Shown: positions 1,383 through 52,193 of the stretch, one piece after another | Layout of the letters: every line of letters begins with the position of its first letter | How positions within the stretch are numbered: position 1 is the stretch's first letter | Source: an uncultured Candidatus Poseidoniales archaeon | GTDB taxonomy: Archaea > Thermoplasmatota > Poseidoniia > Poseidoniales > Poseidoniaceae | DNA: 56,088 nucleotides | Assembly (NCBI GenBank): GCA_905182715.1 | Contig: CAJJCP010000010.1 | Span: 1 to 56,088, forward strand | Direction of reading: 5' to 3' | The notes under the pieces: model-generated | The model's database searches: none | The model's input: only the letters and a program-made list of their open reading frames with translations | Told to the model about the DNA's origin: nothing | Program-made: the position numbers and the translations under genes

Positions 1383-1460
1383 GTACTGGTGTTCACTCTG
1401 CCAAGTTTTCTTGGCACTGTGAGTCAAAGGTTTGATGTCTGTAGGCGGATTGGTTCTGCT

Positions 1461-4400
1461 ATGCGCCCTTCATTTGCATCCGTATCGGCAATCCTGATTT
1501 CATTCTTGATGCTCTCATCCGTCTTTGTGTTGGAACACTCGAGTGAAGCTTTTGAGGAACTAGACGACGTCAGTTCTGACCTCATCGAGTTTACATCCGC
1601 ACGTGGTTCTTCGAAATCCTTCATTGCTTCAGGTGGCTCCTCTACCCAGAGTATCGATCCATCTCAAATTATTGCGGACCCAAATGGTGGATGGATTATT
1701 GGCTCTGAATACAATACAACCTTGACTTTTGGTACACAAACTCTCCAACGAACTTCCCCGTATAACGCTGGAGAATTCTTTTTAGCGACCATTGATGATA
1801 CAGGTACTTGGCAATCACTGTTCGGTGCCGACCATAGTTTTGGTGCAGGTGGCCTTTCTTACCTTACGGATATCAACGTCGATATCGGTGGGGAAATCTT
1901 GGTAACTGGATATTTTTATGGTGAGATTTCCTTTTCCGGAGGTCCAGGTAACCCTACATCAATCATCTCGAATACCAACTCTGGTTTCCATTATGAAGGG
2001 TTCTTGGCGAAAGCAGACCGAATGGGTAATTGGCTATGGGCCAATGGGTTTAGCACATTAGTGAACGGTTCAGGTGAATACAGTGTGACCAGCACTCTTG
2101 AACTCGACAATGTGGGTGATATTTATGTCACCGGTGAATTTCAAGGCGAAACTGACTTTGGCGGTTTTACATTGAATGTCTCGAATACTCAGGTCTTTGT
2201 AGCAAAATTTTCGGGAAGGACAGGCTCTCTTGATTGGGTTGTCAATGGTGGTGGAATTGGTACGAACCGTATTATTGATTCCGCAGTGACTCCATCCGGG
2301 GGTCTCAAATTAGCAACAATTTCTGATGGCTTTGCTCAATGGTCGAGCTCAAGTTATGTGGCAGTGGGTACACTTGACGCTGTGATTGTTGAATTAGATG
2401 CTACCGGTGGTGTACTTAATCTGAAAGGAATTGGTGCCAGTGGTCAACAAACAGTTGTCACCAGTATTACCGTTGATTCCGCAGGAGATACCTATCTTGC
2501 AGGAACCTTTGGTGGAACGATCTCAAGTGGAGGTTGGACTGCCACTGCAATGTATGGTGGAAATGATATCTTTGTAGCACGAAGCGCAGTTACCACTTCC
2601 AACAGTTGGGCATTTGTATCAGGTTCAAGTGCAGCTGACGAAGCCCAAGCCCTCGCAGTCACCTCATCTGGGGCAGTCGCGTACAGTGGCTATCTTACTG
2701 CATCGCATACCGCAGGCGCCACAACATTGGTTCCTTCAAACCATGATGGTTTTGTCATTGGTCTCTCATCGACAGGTACACTTGATTGGACTGAACTGAT
2801 TGGTGGTTCACAGTATGACTATGCTTGGGCCATGAACGTCAACATCAGTGACTACATTGGTATCGCAGGTTCGTATTCAGGTTCAATGACGCACGACGGC
2901 TCTACTTTGACTTCATCTGGCGGTAGAGATGCCTATGTGTGGGTTTTTGACCCCGCATCACTGAAAGATTCAGACAGCGACAGTATTGTCGATGTCGATG
3001 ATAACTGTCCAAACGTTTCGAATCCGAGTCAAGCCGATACCGACAGCGACGGCCTCGGTGACGCATGTGATTCAGACGATGACAACGATGGACTCACAGA
3101 TAATTATCCGGATTATTGTCCTCGGAACAGTGAATTCAATTGGACCAGTATGCAAGATTTGGACAATCCTTCCGCTTCAACTGATTGGGATAATGACGGT
3201 TGTAAAGACGATTCCGAAGATTCCGATGACGATAACGACCAAGTCCTCGATGTTGACGACCTTTGTCCTTACACTTCCTATGATCCACCTCGACCAACCT
3301 GGATTTCAGATACAGCCACCAACGACATCGACGGCGATGGATGCCGAGACAGTGATGAAGACCTCAATGATGATGCAGATGGATTTGATGATGCCAATGA
3401 TGATTGTCCAACTCTTGCAGGAACTTCCACAAATGGTACCATTGGTTGTCTTGATACTGATGGCGATGGTTGGTCAGACTCGACCGATGATTGTCCAAGT
3501 GAGGCTGGTAATTCTACTCGAAACGGCAAAAATGCATGTCCTGACAACGATGGAGACGGTTGGTCGAATGCTGATGACGCATTCCCCGACGAGGTCACTC
3601 AGTGGGCAGATGCCGACTCGGATGGATTTGGAGATAATACCCAAGGTGTCACTCCTGATGCTTGTCCTACCGTTCCGGGAACGTCCACGATTGACCGTTT
3701 AGGATGCTTTGATGCTGATGAAGATGGTTATTCAAATTCAGATACGACTTGGAATGTTGGAAACGGGGCTGATTACTTCCCGAACGATCCGACTCAATGG
3801 TCTGACTTTGATGAAGATGGTTTTGGCGATAATCTGGGGCAACTTCTCATGGACTGACCGGTAAATCTTCTTGGCCAGGTGAAATGGTAATGGATGCAAC
3901 TACGCAAGATGCATGCCCTACCCGTTCAGGGAACTCTTGGCAAGATGACACACTTGGCTGCCCAGATGCTGATGGCGATGGCTGGTACGACTTGATGGAT
4001 GCGTTCTCAAGCGATGCTACGCAATGGGAAGATGCAGATATGGATGGCTACGGTGACAATGCCTCTGGTAACCAGCCCGATGCATGCCCTTCTGTTGCAG
4101 GTAACTCAACCATCGATCGTTTCGGTTGTATGGATTCAGACGGTGATGGCTACTCAAACGCCGATTTCTCTTGGGGATACGACATGGGTGGCGATGCTTT
4201 CCCTGACGAACCGACGCAATGGGCAGACGGAGACGGTGATGGCTTTGGAGAGAATCCAAATGGTGTCACTCCTGATGATTGTCCTACCGTTCGTGATACT
4301 TCCAGCATCGACCGATATGGTTGTGCAGATACAGATGGAGACGGTATTTCCGACCCCGATGATACCTGGACCCTTGCTGATGGTGCAGATGCATGTATTT

Positions 4401-4997
4401 CGGGTGCTGGAAACTCAACACTCGACCGCATTGGTTGCTTTGATGGCGATGGTGATGGCTACTCAAACCCAGCAGGCGATTGGTCTGTGAGTGATGGAGC
4501 AGATGCGTATCCTGATGACCCTCTACGTTGGCTCAAAGACAAGTCTGCAAGCGATGGGGCCTCCTCTTCAACTGTGGTGATCTTTGGAATCGTGGGTTCT
4601 TGTATTGGCAGTTATTGCCGCACTTGCCCTTTTGTTCCTCAAAAAGCCTGAAGAAGAAGGTGTTCAAAAGACATGGACTGACGGTACGTTCGCTCCAATG
4701 GGTGGTGCAATGCCTGCCATGCCGAACATGGGTGCTCAACCAGCAGTCATGATGCCAAGCTACGCTGCAATACCTGCAGCGACTCCAGCAGTGGCTATGC
4801 CTGACTTTGCAGCTCAACCTGCAGCACAACCCGTTGCAGTTGCAGTAGCGCCTGCGGTTGTTGCACCCGTTGCTCAACCTGCACCAGTACAGCCAGACCC
4901 TGCTCGAGAATACTACAATGGATTGATCGCACAAGGCTATCCACAAGCTAATGCAATTCAATACACGCAACAGTATTATCCAACATTCCAAGGTTGA
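1461..4997 (+). CDS. Large secreted protein with SBBP-type beta-propeller repeats, thrombospondin type 3 repeats and a C-terminal membrane anchor (two frameshifts)
   Basis: The protein of roughly 1,180 residues begins with a signal-type hydrophobic segment after MRPSFASVS; a GTG at 1389 is an alternative start. The first ~500 residues contain repeated motifs such as VGDIYVTGEFQGETDFGG and AGDTYLAGTFGGT, resembling SBBP beta-propeller repeats. From about 2960 to 4530 there are many Asp-rich repeats (DTDSDGLGDACDSDDDNDG, DGDGWSDSTDDCPSEAG) of the thrombospondin type 3 class, which bind calcium, each with paired cysteines. A membrane segment follows (about 4580-4650), then a Pro/Ala/Met-rich tail ending in QYTQQYYPTFQG. 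The frame is lost near 3830 (one base missing) and near 4590 (one base extra); both sides read perfectly in the repeat pattern. It is likely a cell-surface adhesin or degradative scaffold. The substrate is unknown. Confidence 0.8.
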
Positions 4998-5107: not shown

Positions 5108-7810
5108 TCACTTCGATCGTATTTGCAGTCCACGTTGAAGTAACCCACCTTTTTGCTCAGGTTCAATTTCATGCATCACTACCACTTCCTCTTCTTCGTC
5201 TTCAGATGACCGAAAAGTCATCATTAAGGAGGCAAAAAGAGCGCCAAATACTCCAAGCCAAAGGAAGAATGGAAGAACATCAAGCGGTGTGTCAAAATTC
5301 ATCCAGTACGTAAAGTGATTCTGATTTTGAACGATGGAACTCTCCATGGTTTCTGCGTCGGAATCTCCGATCATTGAAGAGGATTGAATCTCAAAGACTG
5401 GGGCAAGGTCACCGAGTGATGGTTTCGTATGCATTGCATGAGCATCTCTGGTATCGAGGTAAAACCGAGTTGTTGAATCACCAGCAATGATGAGTCCGGA
5501 AAGTTGTTCAGATTTGACTTCGATTTCACTGCCTAAATAGATGGGTAAGGCACTTGGCATCGCATCGAGTAGTGAGAATGTCTTCAGTAAGTTCGCCTGA
5601 ATAGAACGTTCCGTAGGGTCGACTGAAGCCTCACATGTGTTGACTGGGATTCCCTTTACGACATCGGTACCAGAACAAACGATATCTGTGACTTCATAGC
5701 CGGAAACATCGACTTTGTCACGAACTCCAGTAAGAAAACCACCGGTCGCACCTGAGAGGTCTTCCGGAGTGATAAGCCCGAATGTTGCATCATACATTGC
5801 ATCGTTTCTCCATGACAATTGACTTGAGCCGTCTTGTTGTAGCAACTCACCTTTTTCGCAAACAGGCCTCTCACCTGTACAAATTGTGTAATTCGTGCCA
5901 TCACCGTTAACCACTTCATCAGAGCCATAGTAGGTTTTGTTCGATTCTAAAGAAGCCCAACCCACACTCATGTCGCTTGCATCCCCTGATGCCAGGACGG
6001 CACTGACTGGGTCATGCCATCCGAGAAGCCAGCTGTTGACTGATTGAGTAAGATAGGGCTGCGCTCCAAAACTCGTTATCAATAAATCTTCCACGAACTC
6101 ACCAAAGATGTCATCAACGACTAATTCTTGAAGGGCTCTTGCTTCATTGGTTTGAATCTTGTAGGCTGCGGCAATCACCTCAAGGTCCCAACTCTTTGTT
6201 TCCGAGATTGGTGTTCCAAGGTATCCCGGTGGAGCCTTGCCTGACAGTTCACCGTAGAGGAAGAGCAGTGCTCCATCCGTTGTGGTCAGACCCAACGGTC
6301 CATACAATATTTCAGCCGACTGTTCAGGTGTGAGTTCGATGTCTGGAAGTAAATTCATTGTTCCCCAATCACCACCCTGATTCAAACTGTATTGCAGAAA
6401 ACCACCACTAATTGGATCTTGAGCGCCAAAACTTGTGTTGACAAATTGCTTGGCATTGAGTGTACCATTCCCCCCAAGTAAAGCCATTTGGAGTGAAGAG
6501 GTGGAGTTTGACCACCCATTTGCCCAAGGAGTGATTACATCGTATTGGCCTTGACTTAAATCAAAAGTCGACATTGCTTCTGATGGCGATAATCCTAAGA
6601 ATTTACTTAATCCAAATCCCGTACCTCCTGAATTTGTAGCTAACAAACCAAGTGGGCTATCGGTCCCATCACCGTTCAGCATCAAATTCAGACAGTCAAC
6701 ATCGGAAAAATCGATCCCAAGTAAATTGTTCAAACGGTCAGCAATATCGTCACTGTCGGTGTATGGCGAGCCTCCACCATTCGATTGAAATTCAAAACCT
6801 ATTCCAACATATAAAGCCCAATCCCGAATCAGCGTTTGAGCGTAATCGATGTTTTCAGAGTCGTCCAAACCGTCACCATCCGTATCCACCATTTCGGCGG
6901 CCAAGTAGCCGTAAGCTCTCGCTCGTTTGACCGAGATGGAATCGGTTGGGTTTGCTTCAAGTTCGGATAATAAGGCATCTGGTTCTCCCATAGAAACAAA
7001 GGCTACTGGACCCAAATCATTGAGTAATGAAATATCAAACAAAGAATCTGATGGATGAAATGAAGAATTCAGTGCTGTATCGAGACCTTCAAGGAAGTTC
7101 GCTATTGGTAAGATGTTTCCATCAAGAGTATTTGGTAACAGTACGCTCACTTGCCCAGCCGCTTCGGCTGCAGTGAGTGCTGCGTATGAATACGAGCCAA
7201 AACCAGCCCCTCCAATCGTTTGGGTCATCGAGTCAATGAAATCTGCAGTAGCAATTCCGGCTTGGGTTGTATTCAAATCTTGATTCATCATTCCACTTGA
7301 AAAACCAACTTTCGTCAAATCCATGATGCCTTTGAATGCCGTTCCAGTCGCCCCAATTAATTGTGGTCGAAACTGAATATTCAGTTGAGTCAAATCCTCA
7401 TCACAAGAATTCGTACTTTCTGTAGAGCAGTGATAACTTTTAACAACATTATAGGTGAGTTCACCGTTCTGCTCATCATGGTTTATGAGTGTTTTCTCCG
7501 AAGTTATTTCGTAGGTATAAGGACCCTTCTTCTCATACCTTGGCTGAACACTCTCTGCCAACACATCTTCTAAATTCGCTAAATTCCATGCATAATAATC
7601 ACGTGTTACAGTCGTGGTGGCCCAAGAATCTTCGACGCTCTCGCAGTTTCCGTCGTTACCACAGGCAGAATCAAGGGGAAAGGTAGCAAATTTTTCTTCT
7701 ACCGCACCAGGTACTGCACCGGTAAACACGATAGGCAGGAGTGTCACATTGATCAGTAAAAAAAATGTTGCAGCACCGAGTAGAATCTTGTTCAAGAGTG
7801 AGACCTGCAT
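5108..7810 (-). CDS. CD36/LIMP-2 (scavenger receptor class B)-like membrane protein
   Basis: The 900-residue product has an uncleaved-looking N-terminal membrane helix (residues ~8-30), a large ectodomain and a second helix (~848-866) followed by a short acidic cytoplasmic tail. This is the CD36-family topology. Similarities recalled from human CD36: an N-terminal DYYAWNLANLEDVL region like the family's FWIFDVQNPQEVM; KKGPYTYEI at ~95-102 matching RGPYTYRV; NSWLLGWHDPVSAVLA near residue 590 matching ELLWGYRDPFLSLV; and a following block with NYTICTG, then LSWRNDAM, where CD36 has its Cys-rich lipid-pocket region. Compared with ~470-residue CD36, about 400 residues are inserted after residue ~150, including a D-T-D-G-D-G-L-D-D motif at ~308-318 that looks like a calcium loop. 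Eukaryotic relatives transport lipids or bind ligands. Function here is unknown. It is convergent with the TSP3-repeat gene and divergent from an RND exporter. Confidence 0.75.
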   Translation of the reverse strand: MQVSLLNKILLGAATFFLLINVTLLPIVFTGAVPGAVEEKFATFPLDSACGNDGNCESVEDSWATTTVTRDYYAWNLANLEDVLAESVQPRYEKKGPYTYEITSEKTLINHDEQNGELTYNVVKSYHCSTESTNSCDEDLTQLNIQFRPQLIGATGTAFKGIMDLTKVGFSSGMMNQDLNTTQAGIATADFIDSMTQTIGGAGFGSYSYAALTAAEAAGQVSVLLPNTLDGNILPIANFLEGLDTALNSSFHPSDSLFDISLLNDLGPVAFVSMGEPDALLSELEANPTDSISVKRARAYGYLAAEMVDTDGDGLDDSENIDYAQTLIRDWALYVGIGFEFQSNGGGSPYTDSDDIADRLNNLLGIDFSDVDCLNLMLNGDGTDSPLGLLATNSGGTGFGLSKFLGLSPSEAMSTFDLSQGQYDVITPWANGWSNSTSSLQMALLGGNGTLNAKQFVNTSFGAQDPISGGFLQYSLNQGGDWGTMNLLPDIELTPEQSAEILYGPLGLTTTDGALLFLYGELSGKAPPGYLGTPISETKSWDLEVIAAAYKIQTNEARALQELVVDDIFGEFVEDLLITSFGAQPYLTQSVNSWLLGWHDPVSAVLASGDASDMSVGWASLESNKTYYGSDEVVNGDGTNYTICTGERPVCEKGELLQQDGSSQLSWRNDAMYDATFGLITPEDLSGATGGFLTGVRDKVDVSGYEVTDIVCSGTDVVKGIPVNTCEASVDPTERSIQANLLKTFSLLDAMPSALPIYLGSEIEVKSEQLSGLIIAGDSTTRFYLDTRDAHAMHTKPSLGDLAPVFEIQSSSMIGDSDAETMESSIVQNQNHFTYWMNFDTPLDVLPFFLWLGVFGALFASLMMTFRSSEDEEEEVVVMHEIEPEQKGGLLQRGLQIRSK

Positions 7811-8056
7811 ATGGAGTGATACACAATTTTGGTTGTTAAAGATTGAGCCGACAAAAAATCAAATGGAGTGTACCTCCTGACGTTCTTGAGTAAGTTCAGC
7901 ATCTGATATACAATTGATGTATTAACCCTCAACATCATTTTGATACTGGATTACGCAAGCGTTGGTCGCAGAGTGTGCCCATGTAATGTGAAGTAGAAAC
8001 ATTTCGCTGTATGTTGGAAACATTCATTGATAAATGGGCCATGTCCGGCAAGGGAT

Positions 8057-10415
8057 ATGGAATCCTCGACTGACGCTCGGATGTTCGAAGGCCGCGCCTT
8101 TTACAAACTTGGAGAATTCACGCATGATTACCGAAAACAAGTCCTTGCGTTTGGTATTCTTGCCTGTTTAGGGATGGCTTCATTGATGGCTATGGGACCT
8201 GACTGGTCCGAGGCTTGGGGCGAAGGAGATCTTGAATCAGTTGAAGCGATTTCGACCATGAACGATGCCTTTAGCGAAGATGGAAGCGACTCTGAAAGTG
8301 CTCAAGGTTTTGTTTATCTTGTTCGTCATTCGACGCTCAATGACACTTCCGAGCTCTGGCAACAAGAAGTACAAGATGCCCTTGCTGGTTTTGCTAAATT
8401 AGCAGATGTTTCTATAGAGTACTCTTGGGAGACTTCAGGTGATGAGCGTAATGAATTCACTTTAGAGCGTGATGATGGATTTTGGGCACAGAACAAGGTC
8501 GTGTTCAACATGTCACGTAAAGATGCCAAAATCCTTTATTCAGAGCATTGGGAATCGGTAGAAATTGATAGCCAGTTTGATGCATGGAGGACTGATAAAA
8601 CCGCTATTGAATTCACTTTTGATAATCGAATTCAAGAAGACCTTGTCAAGGCAGAACTTGTATCAGGTCCACTTTCACTCATCATTCTCGCCATCGTTTT
8701 CGGTACACTCATTGCGGCTCTCTTACCTGTAGGAGTTGGTATTCTCACCGTAGTCTCTGCCATGGGCGTTACGATTTGGTTGTCAAATGTCACGGATGTC
8801 ACTCAATATGCTGTCAATATCATTTCACTCATTGGAATTGGTGTCTCGATTGATTATTCTCTCTTCCTTGTAAATCGATTCAGGGAAGAGATGGGGCGTA
8901 ATCCGGATGATATCCGCACTGCTACTGCAATGACGGTTGCTACTGCAGGTAAAGCGGTGTTTTTCAGCGGTGTAACCGTTGCCATTGGGTTGATGGGGAT
9001 GTTATTCTTCACCAATACCAGTTTGCCAAGCCTGGGTATCGGCGGGACTTTAGCCGTCACTATTGCAATGATCTATTCTCTCCTTGGTTTTACCTGCAGT
9101 TCTCGCACTTCTTGGTCCTCGAATCAATACAGGTCGTAAACTCCCTTTCTCGTTCAAGATTGAAGAAAACGGTGAGGATGGCATTTGGTCTCGTATTGCA
9201 AACACAGTGATGGACAGGCCATGGGCGGTTTTGATTCCAACGCTCATCATCCTGCTCGGTGCTGGGTTGCCCTTCTTCCAAGCTGAGTTCTCTCTTGCGA
9301 ACCGTGATGCTCTTCCACCGGATGATGAATCACGACTTGGACTCGACCATATCGACTCTCTCTGGCCACAAAGCACCTCAAATGCTGCTATTGTCGTGAT
9401 TGATTTTGATGGGACTGACCCGCTGAATGAATCGAACCTACGTCAAATGCACCGTTGGATGGTCTCGCAAGTGGAAGATGAACGGATTGTCGAAGCCTTT
9501 GGCTATGCATTGCCACAGATTGGTATGAACGAATCAAGCGTGGTTCAGTTCTGGACAACACCTGCCGAATACCTCACACCAGAGCAAAACGCCACACGTG
9601 AATATCTTCGACAACAATTCATCTCTGGTGATGTCACCTATGTCGTGTACGCTATTGACGGGCCAAGTACCAGTAGGGAAAGCCATGAGTTCGTAGAAGA
9701 TATGCGTGAAGACCGAGATGATTTCACCGACCTGTTGATTGTCGGCGAGGATTCCTCGCTCAAGGTAGCAGGGTTTGCTGCCTACAGCCTCGATACGCTT
9801 TGGGCCATTCAAGACAGTCTCCCAATAGCATTGGCCTTCATTCTCATCTCAACCATTGTCTTGATTTTCATTCAAGTTCGCAGTGTCATTATTCCAATCA
9901 AGGCAATTGTGATGAATATTCTCTCGATTTCCGCATCGTTCGGAATGTTGGTCTTTGTCTTCCAATGGGGTTATGGAGCAGATCTGCTCAACTTTACACC
10001 TCAACCAATTGAGGCTACAAATCCAGTTATCATGTTCTGTATTGTCTTTGGATTATCGATGGATTATGAAGTCTTGATGCTTTCACGTATCCATGAAGAA
10101 TGGGAACGTACGGGCGACAATACCCTTGCTGTCGCCAATGGATTGCAAAAGACAGGGCGCCTAATTACTGGAGCAGCAGCAATCATGGTTGTCGTGTTCA
10201 GTGCCTTTGGTTTGTCTTCAATCATTATCCTCAAGCAAATCGGTTTCGGTCTGGCTCTTGCAATTCTGCTCGATGCAACGATTGTCCGTGCTCTGGTTGT
10301 TCCTGCGACAATGCGCCTCATGGGCAAGTGGAACTGGTGGTCACCAAAATGGCTTGACCGCATGCTCCCTGCCAAAGCAGAACCTGGTCATCCAAAACAA
10401 GAAGAATCCGAATGA
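8057..10415 (+). CDS. RND superfamily (MMPL-type) exporter, one frameshift
   Basis: The protein of about 785 residues has two repeats, each a membrane helix, an extracellular domain and a bundle of five helices. The conserved intramembrane motifs are IGIGVSIDYSLF in the first half and VFGLSMDYEVLMLSR in the second, including the Asp used for proton coupling in RND/MMPL proteins. The second soluble domain begins after FFQAEFSLANRDALPPDDES. The frame breaks at about 9090; dropping one T from a four-T run gives GLPAVLALLGPRIN, the expected end of the first helical bundle. ATG at 8057 was chosen because the hydrophobic helix follows at a normal distance; 8081 is also possible. Substrate cannot be predicted; MMPL relatives export lipids or lipid-like compounds. 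The Old Yellow Enzyme gene starts 4 bases after its stop. Confidence 0.88.
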
Positions 10416-10419
10416 CCTG

Positions 10420-11569
10420 ATGTTCAGTTTGAATCATGCGAAGCATCAAGAAGGGGCAGTTCTTGCTTTCAGCATGGACCCATCGAGTCAATTCACACTT
10501 CCTCGAACGGGACATGTCTTAGCGAACCGGAGCGTACTTGCTGCGATGACCAACAAACAAAGCCATGAAGACGGCACGCTTTCAGATGAAGAAATAAGGT
10601 GGTTGGTTCGACGAGCCAAAGATGGATTCGCCATCACCACAACTGCAGCAGCCAACGTTACCGAACACGGGCGTGGCTGGGAAGGTGAAATGGGCGTATG
10701 GGGCGACCATCAACTCCCAGGTCTTACCAAGATGGCTACGCAATTGAAAGCGGCAGGAACCCTGAGTCTCGCTCAAATTTTTCACGGTGGAATGCGTGCC
10801 CCACAATCTCTCAATCAGGTTCAGCCTGTCTCTGCCAGCGAAAACACCGAGGCGGGAATGGATGGATTGTATACTCGGGCATTAACTCACGATGAAGTTG
10901 TAGAGATGATTCAATCCTTTACAGATGCAGCAGTGCGTTGCCAAAAAGGCTGGCTTTGATGGTGTTGAATTACACGGTGCTCATTCGTATTTGATTTGTC
11001 AATTCCTCGGAAGCATCACCAATCGACGTGAAGATGTCTGGGGTGGCGATTTGGCGGGGAGAAGCAAGTTCTTGCGTGACATGATCACTTCGGTTCGTCA
11101 AGCAACAGGCCCGGACTTTATTCTTGCAGTTCGTATCTCACCCATTATCGAAAAGGCAGGTATCTTCTTACATGAAAGTCTCGAACTTGCCGAGATATTA
11201 TGCGCAATGGACATCGATATGCTTCACATCTCTTGCTGGGATGTGTTCCAAGGCGTTGAGAATGATGAAGACGGCCCGAGTCTCACTCAACGATTCCGTG
11301 ATGTAATTCCTGCACATATGCCACTCGTATCCACAGGCGCAATCTGGTCTTCTATAGACGCAGAATGGCTTATGGATGAAGGTGCAGATTTGATTGGTGT
11401 TGCTCGAGTAGCGATTGCACACCCCGATTGGCCAATGCACCTTGGTGACCCCGATTATTCCCCTGAACGTCCACCGTTTAGCGAGCAGCATTTGCTGGAT
11501 GCAGACTTAAGCCCAGTTTTTGTTGAATACATGAAGCGATGGAAAGACTTCGTTGTCGGTGGCAATTGA
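10420..11569 (+). CDS. Old Yellow Enzyme family NADH:flavin oxidoreductase, one frameshift
   Basis: This is an FMN-dependent TIM-barrel oxidoreductase of the OYE/enoate-reductase class, about 380 residues. Family marks are the N-terminal LANRSVLAAMTN segment, LAQIFHGG, the AGFDGVELHGAHSYL strand with the flavin-site histidines region, and a C-terminal GADLIGVARVAIAHPDWP segment. The frame is broken at about 10938; removing one T from CGTTGCC gives AVRAKKAGFDGVELHGAH, exactly the family pattern, so the break is probably an error. ATG at 10420 follows the RND stop by four bases; ATG at 10474 is an alternative. It is probably cotranscribed with the exporter. The electron acceptor substrate is unknown. 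Confidence 0.87.
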
Positions 11570-49601: not shown

Positions 49602-52193
49602 ATGGATACTGAGTCGTTGGAAGAACGAATGGCCGGTTGGGCTCCATCGTTCAAACGTATGGCACCTGTTCTTCTCGTCGTTGTCTTTCTGTTTACTGTG
49701 GCACTGAGCGTGCATCTGGTCATCTCTCCTCCAACTTTCAATACCGACCTCGCCGATTTTGCACCCGACTCTGAATCGAGTGATGCTCACGATCGTATTC
49801 ATGAATACTTTCCAAATGAAGCAAGGCCACTCTTTGTCCATGTTTCTGCGAAAGACGGTTCAAACATACTTTCTATAGAAAATCTCCAAACGATGAACGA
49901 CCATCTTTCACACATGGAGAATGAATCATCTAAGCGCCAAGATGCTGTTGCTGTTTGGACCACGACACCTGGAATCGTTCAATTAGCTCTCGATGAAGAA
50001 GCAAATGGTACTTCGTTGCATTCGATACAATCATGGGGCGAAATTCTCGACCTCCTTTTTGAGGAGGATACTGTTTGTTCACTCACAGCCGACGACCAAC
50101 TTCTTTCGGCAGCCCGTTATGCTTCATCTGCCCTACTCCATAGCGATTTGAATGTTGATTCAAGTTGTGAATATCTCAAGAATGGAACCGGTGCTGCTGC
50201 CCCTACTGCATCTTCGACCCTCTGGGTGCTTGAAATCGATCCTGACCTCGATGTCGAAAAGAGAAAAGTGATTCAAGACCAATTCCGAATGGAATTCGCC
50301 CAACTTTCAGAATCTTCAGATTTGAATTACGGTGTGGCATCTCTTGACCTTATTTCTTATGACATCGACCAAGGTACTTTTGATAATCTCGCCTTGTTAG
50401 TTGTCCTCGCTTTATTGGTTGTCATTATACTTCTGTCCATTGCCTTCAGATCGATGAACGATGTCGCTTTCCCGTTGATTGGACTCTCTGTTGCTTTGAT
50501 TTGGACGTACGGGGTTTTGAATCTCCTCGATATCCGGTTTACTGCTCTTGAAGTGGCAGTTGCGCCATTGGTACTCGGGCTTGGTATTGATTATGCAATT
50601 CATTTACAACGAGCATTCTCTGCTATTCGTAAAGAACAAGAGGACTCTTCAGAAGCTTGGCTACGGGCTTGCGCTCGACTTTCAATACCACTCTCTTTGG
50701 CAGTTGTAACAACGGTGGCAGCATTTTTGGCGAATGTGATCTCACCTTTGCCACCATTGGCAACATTTGGTTACGCTCTTGCATTTGGTGTTCTATGCGC
50801 TTTTGTTTCATCGACTGCTGTGGTCGGCGCACTCCATGTTGTCCGCAACAAGGCTGTGAATGTTCAACAGAGCCAAGCCATCACCATGCCACGTCTTGTT
50901 GGAGGTATCGTAGCGGTTCAACAAAAGCAGCAAGTCATGGTCATACTGGTGACCATTCTGATTTCTGGAATCTCTATTTTCGGAGCAGCATCGCTTGAAA
51001 CTGATTTTGACCTCGCAGACTTTGTCGACCCGGATATGGAAATTATGCAAGTCCGAGAAGATATGGAAACAAGTTACGACAGTGCAGGTTGGAAATTAAT
51101 TTACATTCTGTTTGAACCCCTTGATGGTTCATCAAGTATTCCAGGGGACGGGCTGATGCTCGATGAACTGAGGGGGCTACACAAAGACTTCGAAGCGAAC
51201 CATGACGTTGTCGGGACTGACAATTCACCACCTTCTCCTTCCTATGAAGGCCCCTATGTCGTTTTACGAGATGCCATCTTACGGGACACTTCTTTTGGTG
51301 AAACGAATAATCTCGAAGTCTATGCAGGTGATGTCTATGTCATCAACACTTCAATTGAACTCAATTTGGCCTCAGCCTTTTCGCAACTTGCAACGAACCA
51401 AACTGTTGCTGATGCATTGACGGGTGAGACTTGGGCGCAACGTATTGAACATACGGTTCACTTAACCGATGATGAAATCACGTATTTCAGAACCGAAGTT
51501 CGTGTTGAGGCATCGACCTCTGCAGAGTCTCAACTTGTCATTAGCAAAATCGAAGAACAACTCGGTAGCACTTCGGAACAAGGTACGCTTCGGTACAACC
51601 TTGACGGTCATGCAAACTTGTATGTGACAGGAGACCTTGTCATTTTGCAAACTGTACTCGACGGTTTGAATACCTCTCAAATCAAATCCACCGTCATTTC
51701 ACTCTTCGTGTCCATGGTCGTCCTGTTGGTCTTGACACGGCGTATGGTTCCAGCGTTAGCAGTACTCCTACCGGTCGCATTGGCGTCACTTTGGGTCGCA
51801 GGTTCAATGTTTATACTCGGTTTGAAATGGAATGTTTTGACCGTGATGGTAACTGCGTTAACCATCGGTATAGGCATCGATTATTCGATTCATATGTGGC
51901 GGCGGATTGAAGTTGAACTGGCTCGAAGAGATTCCCATTGGGAGGCTTTGCGTGCTGCCCTGTCAACCACTGGTGTCGCCTTGATTATGAGTGCACTTAC
52001 CACTGCTTTCGGTTTCCTAGTACTGATGTTTTCACCTATGCCAGTCATCCAAGATTTCGGATTAATTACTGCCGTGACCGTCTTCTTCTCGCTCTTGCTC
52101 GCCTTACTTCTTTTGCCGGTATTGATCGAACTTTCTGCACGTAACAGTGAAGAAGTTCTCGAGAAAGACGATGGCACTGTTATCGAGGGATAA
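49602..52193 (+). CDS. RND superfamily (MMPL-type) exporter
   Basis: This intact 863-residue gene gives the full architecture: first membrane helix (APVLLVVVFLFTVALSVHLV), extracellular domain, a helix bundle with VLGLGIDYAIHLQRAF, a linker, and a second set with IGIGIDYSIHMWRRIE. The Asp in the G-I-D-Y motif is the expected proton-relay residue. ATG 49602 directly precedes a charged stretch and the first helix. It abuts the stop of the convergent DUF2240 gene. Substrate unknown; three such exporters occur within the window, each beside surface or lipid-modifying genes. Confidence 0.9.
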   Translation: MDTESLEERMAGWAPSFKRMAPVLLVVVFLFTVALSVHLVISPPTFNTDLADFAPDSESSDAHDRIHEYFPNEARPLFVHVSAKDGSNILSIENLQTMNDHLSHMENESSKRQDAVAVWTTTPGIVQLALDEEANGTSLHSIQSWGEILDLLFEEDTVCSLTADDQLLSAARYASSALLHSDLNVDSSCEYLKNGTGAAAPTASSTLWVLEIDPDLDVEKRKVIQDQFRMEFAQLSESSDLNYGVASLDLISYDIDQGTFDNLALLVVLALLVVIILLSIAFRSMNDVAFPLIGLSVALIWTYGVLNLLDIRFTALEVAVAPLVLGLGIDYAIHLQRAFSAIRKEQEDSSEAWLRACARLSIPLSLAVVTTVAAFLANVISPLPPLATFGYALAFGVLCAFVSSTAVVGALHVVRNKAVNVQQSQAITMPRLVGGIVAVQQKQQVMVILVTILISGISIFGAASLETDFDLADFVDPDMEIMQVREDMETSYDSAGWKLIYILFEPLDGSSSIPGDGLMLDELRGLHKDFEANHDVVGTDNSPPSPSYEGPYVVLRDAILRDTSFGETNNLEVYAGDVYVINTSIELNLASAFSQLATNQTVADALTGETWAQRIEHTVHLTDDEITYFRTEVRVEASTSAESQLVISKIEEQLGSTSEQGTLRYNLDGHANLYVTGDLVILQTVLDGLNTSQIKSTVISLFVSMVVLLVLTRRMVPALAVLLPVALASLWVAGSMFILGLKWNVLTVMVTALTIGIGIDYSIHMWRRIEVELARRDSHWEALRAALSTTGVALIMSALTTAFGFLVLMFSPMPVIQDFGLITAVTVFFSLLLALLLLPVLIELSARNSEEVLEKDDGTVIEG

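Follow-up and report, generated by a model that had tools for sequence, protein, structure and literature searches.

A CD36/Class B Scavenger Receptor Homolog with an Enlarged Helical Apex in the Archaeal Order Ca. Poseidoniales

Introduction

The CD36 family of lipid-handling surface receptors is known mainly from eukaryotes. An open reading frame (ORF) of an uncultured Candidatus Poseidoniales archaeon, described in the initial annotation as an archaeal CD36/LIMP-2-like membrane protein, raises the question of whether these archaea encode a genuine member of this family and what role such a protein may play in them. The ORF is part of a stretch of 56,088 nucleotides (contig CAJJCP010000010.1), referred to below as the window. 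A search of the open-access literature (titles and abstract openings) retrieved no report of an archaeal CD36 protein, and the main text of the MGII phylogenomics paper contains neither “CD36” nor “scavenger” (PMC6461757). Automatic Pfam annotation probably labels these archaeal proteins already, since the Pfam model recognizes them.

Results

Sequence Similarity to CD36 and LIMP-2

The minus-strand ORF (Table 1) begins with an ATG start codon. A single Pfam family, CD36 (PF01130), was found in the 900-residue product (E=1.4e-17, 63.8 bits; curated cut-off, 26.5 bits), and an NCBIfam search of the same ORF returned no family. All 38 homologs of the first homolog set (A1) also matched CD36 at E<=0.001, and no PF01130 match was present in any of 14 control genomes. 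When the single window sequence was used to search the PDB, LIMP-2 was the first match, with E=0.14. The profile built from the 38 archaeal homologs retrieved LIMP-2 with E=6.3e-7 and CD36 (5lgd) with E=4.6e-4, and each of the eight PDB sequences found at E<=10 was either LIMP-2 or CD36.

Table 1. Features of the CD36-family gene in the window (minus strand throughout).
Feature	Position	Strand	Basis
CD36/class B scavenger receptor homolog, 900 aa	5108..7810	-	ORF; PF01130 E=1.4e-17; Foldseek matches to LIMP-2/CD36
N-terminal membrane anchor, residues 5-31	7718..7798	-	Model helix; hydrophobicity peak from residue 9
N-terminal barrel core, residues 61-145, with NLANLEDV and GPYTYE	7376..7630	-	PF01130 profile 41-130, E=1e-13; colinear with LIMP-2
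Largely helical insert at the apex (“head”), residues 146-553, long helix 147-217 first	6152..7375	-	No Pfam match; model secondary structure; head common to homologs
DTDGDG loop, residues 309-314, clade-specific	6869..6886	-	DxDxDG count in homologs
Apex helix 554-581, then C-terminal barrel core up to residue 840; contains LLGWHDP (595-601)	5291..6151	-	PF01130 profile 143-259, E=0.004; LIMP-2 chain 146-235; model strands
C-terminal membrane anchor, residues 842-871, then short tail	5198..5287	-	Model helix; hydrophobicity

The alignment with LIMP-2 consists of two colinear stretches, in which profile positions 68-144 correspond to chain residues 54-131 and positions 550-650 to residues 146-235. 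The second stretch has an independent E of about 16 and is non-significant when taken alone. Both the PDB profile search and Pfam thus recover the core segments flanking the apex in the order retained by the CD36 family. Three segments had originally been singled out as typical of CD36-family ectodomains, and all three are present: one resembling N-V-x-N-x-x-E-V (NLANLEDV, residues 76-83), GPYTYE (96-101) and LLGWHDP (595-601). The profile pairs them with NVTNPEEIL, GPYTY and LLWGYKDE of LIMP-2, respectively, the LLWGYKDE stretch being weak alone. Cysteines of the window protein are located at positions 50, 56, 128, 136, 373, 644, 651, 712 and 726. In a survey of class B scavenger receptors, ectodomain disulfides 1 and 2 are described as a metazoan feature, with no such pairs in the non-metazoan members that it reports (PMC10715195). 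Judged by its sequence, the window gene is a bona fide relative of class B scavenger receptors, as the initial annotation had proposed.

Predicted Structure and Membrane Topology

An AlphaFold2 model of the window protein, built with 46 homologs, had a mean pLDDT of 83.4 and a pTM of 0.73. In this model, strands at residues 65-143 are followed by helix 147-217, a helix-rich head and helix 554-581, after which further strands extend to residue 813 and lead to the second anchor. A Foldseek search of the PDB with the model returned 12 chains at E<=0.001, every one of them LIMP-2 or CD36 (best E=2.3e-7; CD36 5lgd, E=4.6e-7). The TM-score normalized by target length was 0.39-0.44 in 11 of the 12 chains, with rmsd of 5.4-11.1 A; the exception was 4f7b_B (0.61), which aligned across the insert over 829 columns with an rmsd of 10.4 A.

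A paralog with 30% identity was modeled from its own alignment (pLDDT 78.2, pTM 0.68), the rows of which are all contained in the window alignment, so that the two predictions are non-independent. Again, all 13 chains found at E<=0.001 were LIMP-2 or CD36 (best E=1.2e-7). Seven insert-spanning alignments of the paralog gave TM-scores by target length of 0.53-0.60 with rmsd of 10-18 A, and the others gave 0.33-0.41. The structural matches are thus distant, rmsd being 10-18 A in the insert-spanning alignments of both models. The next Foldseek match of either model was mycobacterial LmcA (E about 0.01, probability 0.99-1.00). According to the models, the ectodomain fold is a CD36-type asymmetric beta-barrel. 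Two outcomes had been named initially as refuting the assignment, one from profile searches and one from the predicted structure, and neither came about.

Hydrophobicity of the window protein peaks at residues 9-27 and 845-863, and the model places membrane helices at both sites (Table 1), so that the tails beyond the anchors are short, at about 8 and 30 residues. The two-anchor topology with short tails, which had been suggested from the letters of the sequence, is therefore seen in both hydrophobicity and model. By hydrophobicity, both anchors are present in 35 of the 38 homologs of set A1 and in 46 of the 47 of set A2, which overlaps with A1. The protein end (residues 841-900) is poorly conserved, with a mean identity of homologs to the window protein of 0.22. 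Two transmembrane helices flanking an ectodomain serve as the operational definition of class B scavenger receptors in the above survey (PMC10715195).

A Helical Head at the Apex

When the protein was divided into three parts and each was compared with Pfam separately, residues 1-145 matched positions 41-130 of the CD36 profile (E=1e-13), residues 554-840 matched positions 143-259 (E=0.004, with 16.1 bits falling short of the cut-off), and residues 146-553 matched nothing up to E=10. It follows that about 410 residues are inserted at a single site, between positions ~130-134 and ~143 of the CD36 profile. An insert of roughly 400 residues had been noted initially, and the search localizes it to a position that agrees with the CD36 apex. 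It is at the apex that lineage-specific expansions are placed in the survey of eukaryotic members, which accepts protist proteins with an expanded apex as belonging to the family (PMC10715195).

The insert had no significant match among PDB sequences (residues 146-590, best E=0.44), and Foldseek searches with the whole models of the window protein and the paralog retrieved only CD36-family structures at E<=0.001. In the 38 homologs, the region equivalent to window residues 146-581 has a median length of 435 residues (range 271-495, the shortest being that of L082). The mean frequency of the commonest residue, with gaps counted against it, is 0.54-0.58 for core columns as against 0.44-0.45 for those of the insert, so the head is conserved among homologs, if less than the barrel. 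As can be seen from the model and the homologs, the apex bears an enlarged helical head where animal members have a small bundle of helices. The DTDGDG loop, initially pointed out as part of the insert, is indeed there. It does not define the family, a DxDxDG motif being found in only 4 of 38 (A1) and 6 of 47 (A2) homologs of the overlapping sets, and the loop was therefore rejected as a defining calcium site.

Distribution in Archaea

PF01130 matches were found in 82 of 99 genomes in the search for relatives, in 213 of 339 genomes of the class and in 102 of 389 genomes of a phylum sample. With the more sensitive archaeal profile, the gene was detected in 147 of 175 class genomes (19 of 24 genera), this set being limited to genomes of at least 80% completeness plus the window's own genome (73%), and in 73 of 292 genomes (16 of 137 genera) of a phylum sample. 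In the class and phylum searches, with PF01130 as well as with the archaeal profile, all matching genomes belong to the order of the window, Ca. Poseidoniales. Even the archaeal profile found no match in 28 of the 175 class genomes; of these, 20 are listed, two of them from the class's other family (f3) and 18 from within the order, among them all five of genus g17 on the list. In the 292-genome phylum sample, 219 genomes had no match to the archaeal profile; the 20 listed comprise eight from the order, six from f3 and six from other classes. PF01130 was without a match in at least 130 genera beyond the class, a figure that follows arithmetically from the 155 genera of the 389-genome phylum sample and the 25 of the 339-genome class set.

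A scan of species genomes with one family-specific pattern retrieved 223 stretches, of which 211 encode relatives. Among the 80 relatives listed, 79 carry Poseidoniales, Poseidoniaceae, Poseidonia, Thalassarchaeaceae or euryarchaeote names, and one of these is the MG-II single-contig chromosome CM001443.1. The pattern is archaeal-specific and says nothing on other prokaryotes; for the relatives it retrieves, the names support the suggestion of an archaeal branch. One locus labeled as a Rhodobiaceae bacterium (L127) has the CD36 gene together with neighbor clusters of other Poseidoniales loci and is probably a misbinned contig.

Viral or plasmid carriage was considered and rejected: viral contigs gave 23 pattern matches, none of which was a relative, plasmids and phages yielded nothing at E<=10, and viral folds yielded no match at E<=0.001.

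The window genome has two CD36-family copies, the second of which, on contig C2 (L050), is split between two reading frames. One CD36-family copy at L109/L051 is likewise split between two frames.

Phylogeny

Across 38 proteins (20 of family f1, 18 of family f2), a quick tree keeps the two families largely apart, with 3 label changes (mean after shuffling, 13.1 for f1 and 12.9 for f2). The branches of L082 and L089 are long. One f2 protein (L053:5419-8028) groups with the window clade (6 rows, SH-aLRT 100), which is nested within an otherwise f1 group of 18 rows (SH-aLRT 100). Within the genus of this L053 protein, a genus of the sister family, four contigs carry the gene head-to-head with that of a distant paralog: L053 (which is also the contig of L102), L103, L104 and L123 (cut off). 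The simplest reading is a long presence of the CD36 gene in the order together with transfer between its families; an old duplication followed by losses may account for the pattern instead.

Gene Neighborhood

ORFs around homologs were clustered, and no gene partner was found to recur across clades among 121 loci with the CD36 gene. The 20 cluster representatives that were annotated form a mixed, clade-dependent collection of pyruvate kinase, tRNA and purine enzymes, regulators, transport proteins, a glycosyl transferase and some proteins with no match. Lipid-linked neighbors occur within some clades: cluster 62 (5 members) is a PlsC-type acyltransferase and cluster 48 (6 members) a protein with a phospholipase D domain, and neither crosses clades. 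With neighbors so mixed and changing between clades, gene neighborhood was rejected as a clue to function. In 9 loci (L073, L080, L088, L134, L138, L139, L163, L166 and L169), the CD36 gene is immediately followed by a same-strand Band_7/SPFH (flotillin-like) gene; the three loci from coded genomes represent one genus (g14), so these occurrences may not be independent.

Both LIMP-2 and the transporter NPC1 handle cholesterol in animals, which makes an MMPL/RND transporter encoded upstream of the window gene, in divergent orientation, of interest. It occupies two overlapping frames, 8027-9139 and 9084-10415 (+), with an MMPL domain in both, and is possibly split by an assembly indel or decayed. 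These ORFs clustered with no other ORF in the loci. A second MMPL-type gene of the window, 49602-52193 (+), encodes 863 aa matching the Patched (E 1.2e-15) and sterol-sensing-domain (2.3e-13) Pfam families, and members of its cluster lie within three ORFs of a CD36 gene on the contig shared by L075 and L090 and in L166. The link between MMPL and CD36 genes is weak.

On the other side of the CD36 gene, the ORF at 1389-3857 (+) encodes an 822-aa protein with TSP_3 repeats and is followed by ORFs 3884-4651 and 4584-4997 in other frames, a pattern that looks like frame breaks. A thrombospondin-CD36 pair was considered for this neighbor and given up: TSP_3 repeats abound in the window genome (25 matches), and in animals the thrombospondin-CD36 interaction uses another repeat type. 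A further ORF, 10189-10959 (+), matches NADH:flavin oxidoreductase (PF00724, profile 13-162 of 342) and is overlapped in another frame by ORF 10925-11569 (+), a third apparent frame break nearby. Three such breaks close together suggest indel errors in the assembly.

Discussion

Comparison with Known Proteins

The archaeal protein shares with LIMP-2/SCARB2 (4f7b, 4q4b) the order of signatures, the predicted barrel fold and two anchors. It differs in inserting about 410 residues where LIMP-2 has about 14 (chain 131-146), and identity in structural alignments is 8-15%. CD36/SCARB3 (5lgd), matched by both Foldseek and profile, shows the same differences. Protist class B scavenger receptors have a CD36 domain, two flanking helices and a helical apex expansion without known relatives, and the archaeal ectodomain of about 810 residues falls within the range of 413-2,294 residues given for non-metazoan members (PMC10715195). 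The likeness to protist apices is drawn from that published description, and the archaeal head differs from them in being common to a whole order. The survey covered eukaryotic proteomes only (PMC10715195).

Possible Function

LIMP-2 moves cholesterol, and mutants with a blocked tunnel are impaired in its delivery (PMC6684646). Fatty acid degradation is reported to be encoded in all MGII genera, and mixed membranes based on G3P have been proposed for these archaea (PMC6461757). We propose a lipid-collecting receptor because it fits both lines of background, and consider it probable that the window gene encodes a CD36-family receptor in which the head captures lipid at the surface and the barrel passes it down to the membrane. 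Two membrane helices would hold the ~810-residue ectodomain outside the cell, the side being assumed from the family, with a predicted CD36 beta-barrel as its core and the enlarged helical head at its apex. The head would probably capture a lipid-bearing ligand, such as free fatty acids, vesicles or lipid-rich particles. By analogy with animal members, the barrel would contain a lipid tunnel and hand lipid through it to the outer membrane face, and the delivered lipid would enter fatty-acid degradation or the supply of membrane lipid.

The main rival to lipid capture is an adhesin, in which the head would bind particles, algal surfaces or cells and the barrel would be a mere stalk with no lipid transfer. 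We regard this as possible, if doubtful. A large head common to all 38 homologs would suit such a role, and MGII archaea have been linked to particle attachment, thrombospondin and flotillin being named as adhesion genes (PMC6461757). The nearby TSP_3-repeat gene could be seen in the same light, but its adjacency is perhaps due to chance, given how common these repeats are in the genome, and the cluster of the TSP_3 protein has members in 16 loci as against 121 with the CD36 gene. Moreover, conservation of barrel columns above the level of the head suggests a working barrel. The protein might also be a sensor that, upon binding lipid or another ligand at the head, signals via a partner or via its short tails in the cytoplasm. 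In eukaryotic members, ligand sensing has been tied to the apex (PMC10715195), but the poor conservation of the protein end and the lack of a signaling partner recurring across clades make this unlikely for the archaeal protein.

Two further explanations question the assignment itself. A convergent lipid-binding barrel of the LmcA type would agree with LmcA (Mycobacterium smegmatis; 7n3v, 7shw) being next in the Foldseek search. The likeness is at the level of the barrel and weak, with E more than four orders of magnitude worse than that of CD36/LIMP-2, and LmcA is a smaller, bacterial protein (254-266 residues) that is absent from the PDB sequence-search matches. Since CD36/LIMP-2 sequence signatures and their order are also statistically significant, convergence is highly improbable. 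Even less credit can be given to contamination of the assembly with eukaryotic DNA, which would explain why a family known mainly from eukaryotes is seen here: the ORF is intron-free, the window contig also carries a gene matching the KH domain of transcription terminator FttA, which we take to be archaeal, and the CD36 gene is present in most genomes of the class set and in a single-contig genome (G055).

Origin and Implications

The restriction to one archaeal order within the searched phylum, set against the broad presence of the family in eukaryotes, leads us to favor an old transfer into the ancestor of Poseidoniales, though the origin of the family may be archaeal or older. It seems unlikely to us, if somewhat less so than the sensor, that the Poseidoniales proteins are a native archaeal branch whose large head is ancestral, that this branch or its close kin gave rise to eukaryotic CD36/LIMP-2, and that the proteins form a surface system pulling lipid out of seawater particles and into the membrane. 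To our knowledge, lipid uptake of this kind is undescribed for archaea.

A CD36 relative in abundant ocean archaea raises the questions of where the family came from and of what use it is to archaea. The protein would be a candidate lipid-capture receptor for uncultured heterotrophs that encode fatty-acid degradation, and the archaeal proteins provide a second, prokaryotic set in which expansion of the CD36 apex may be studied.
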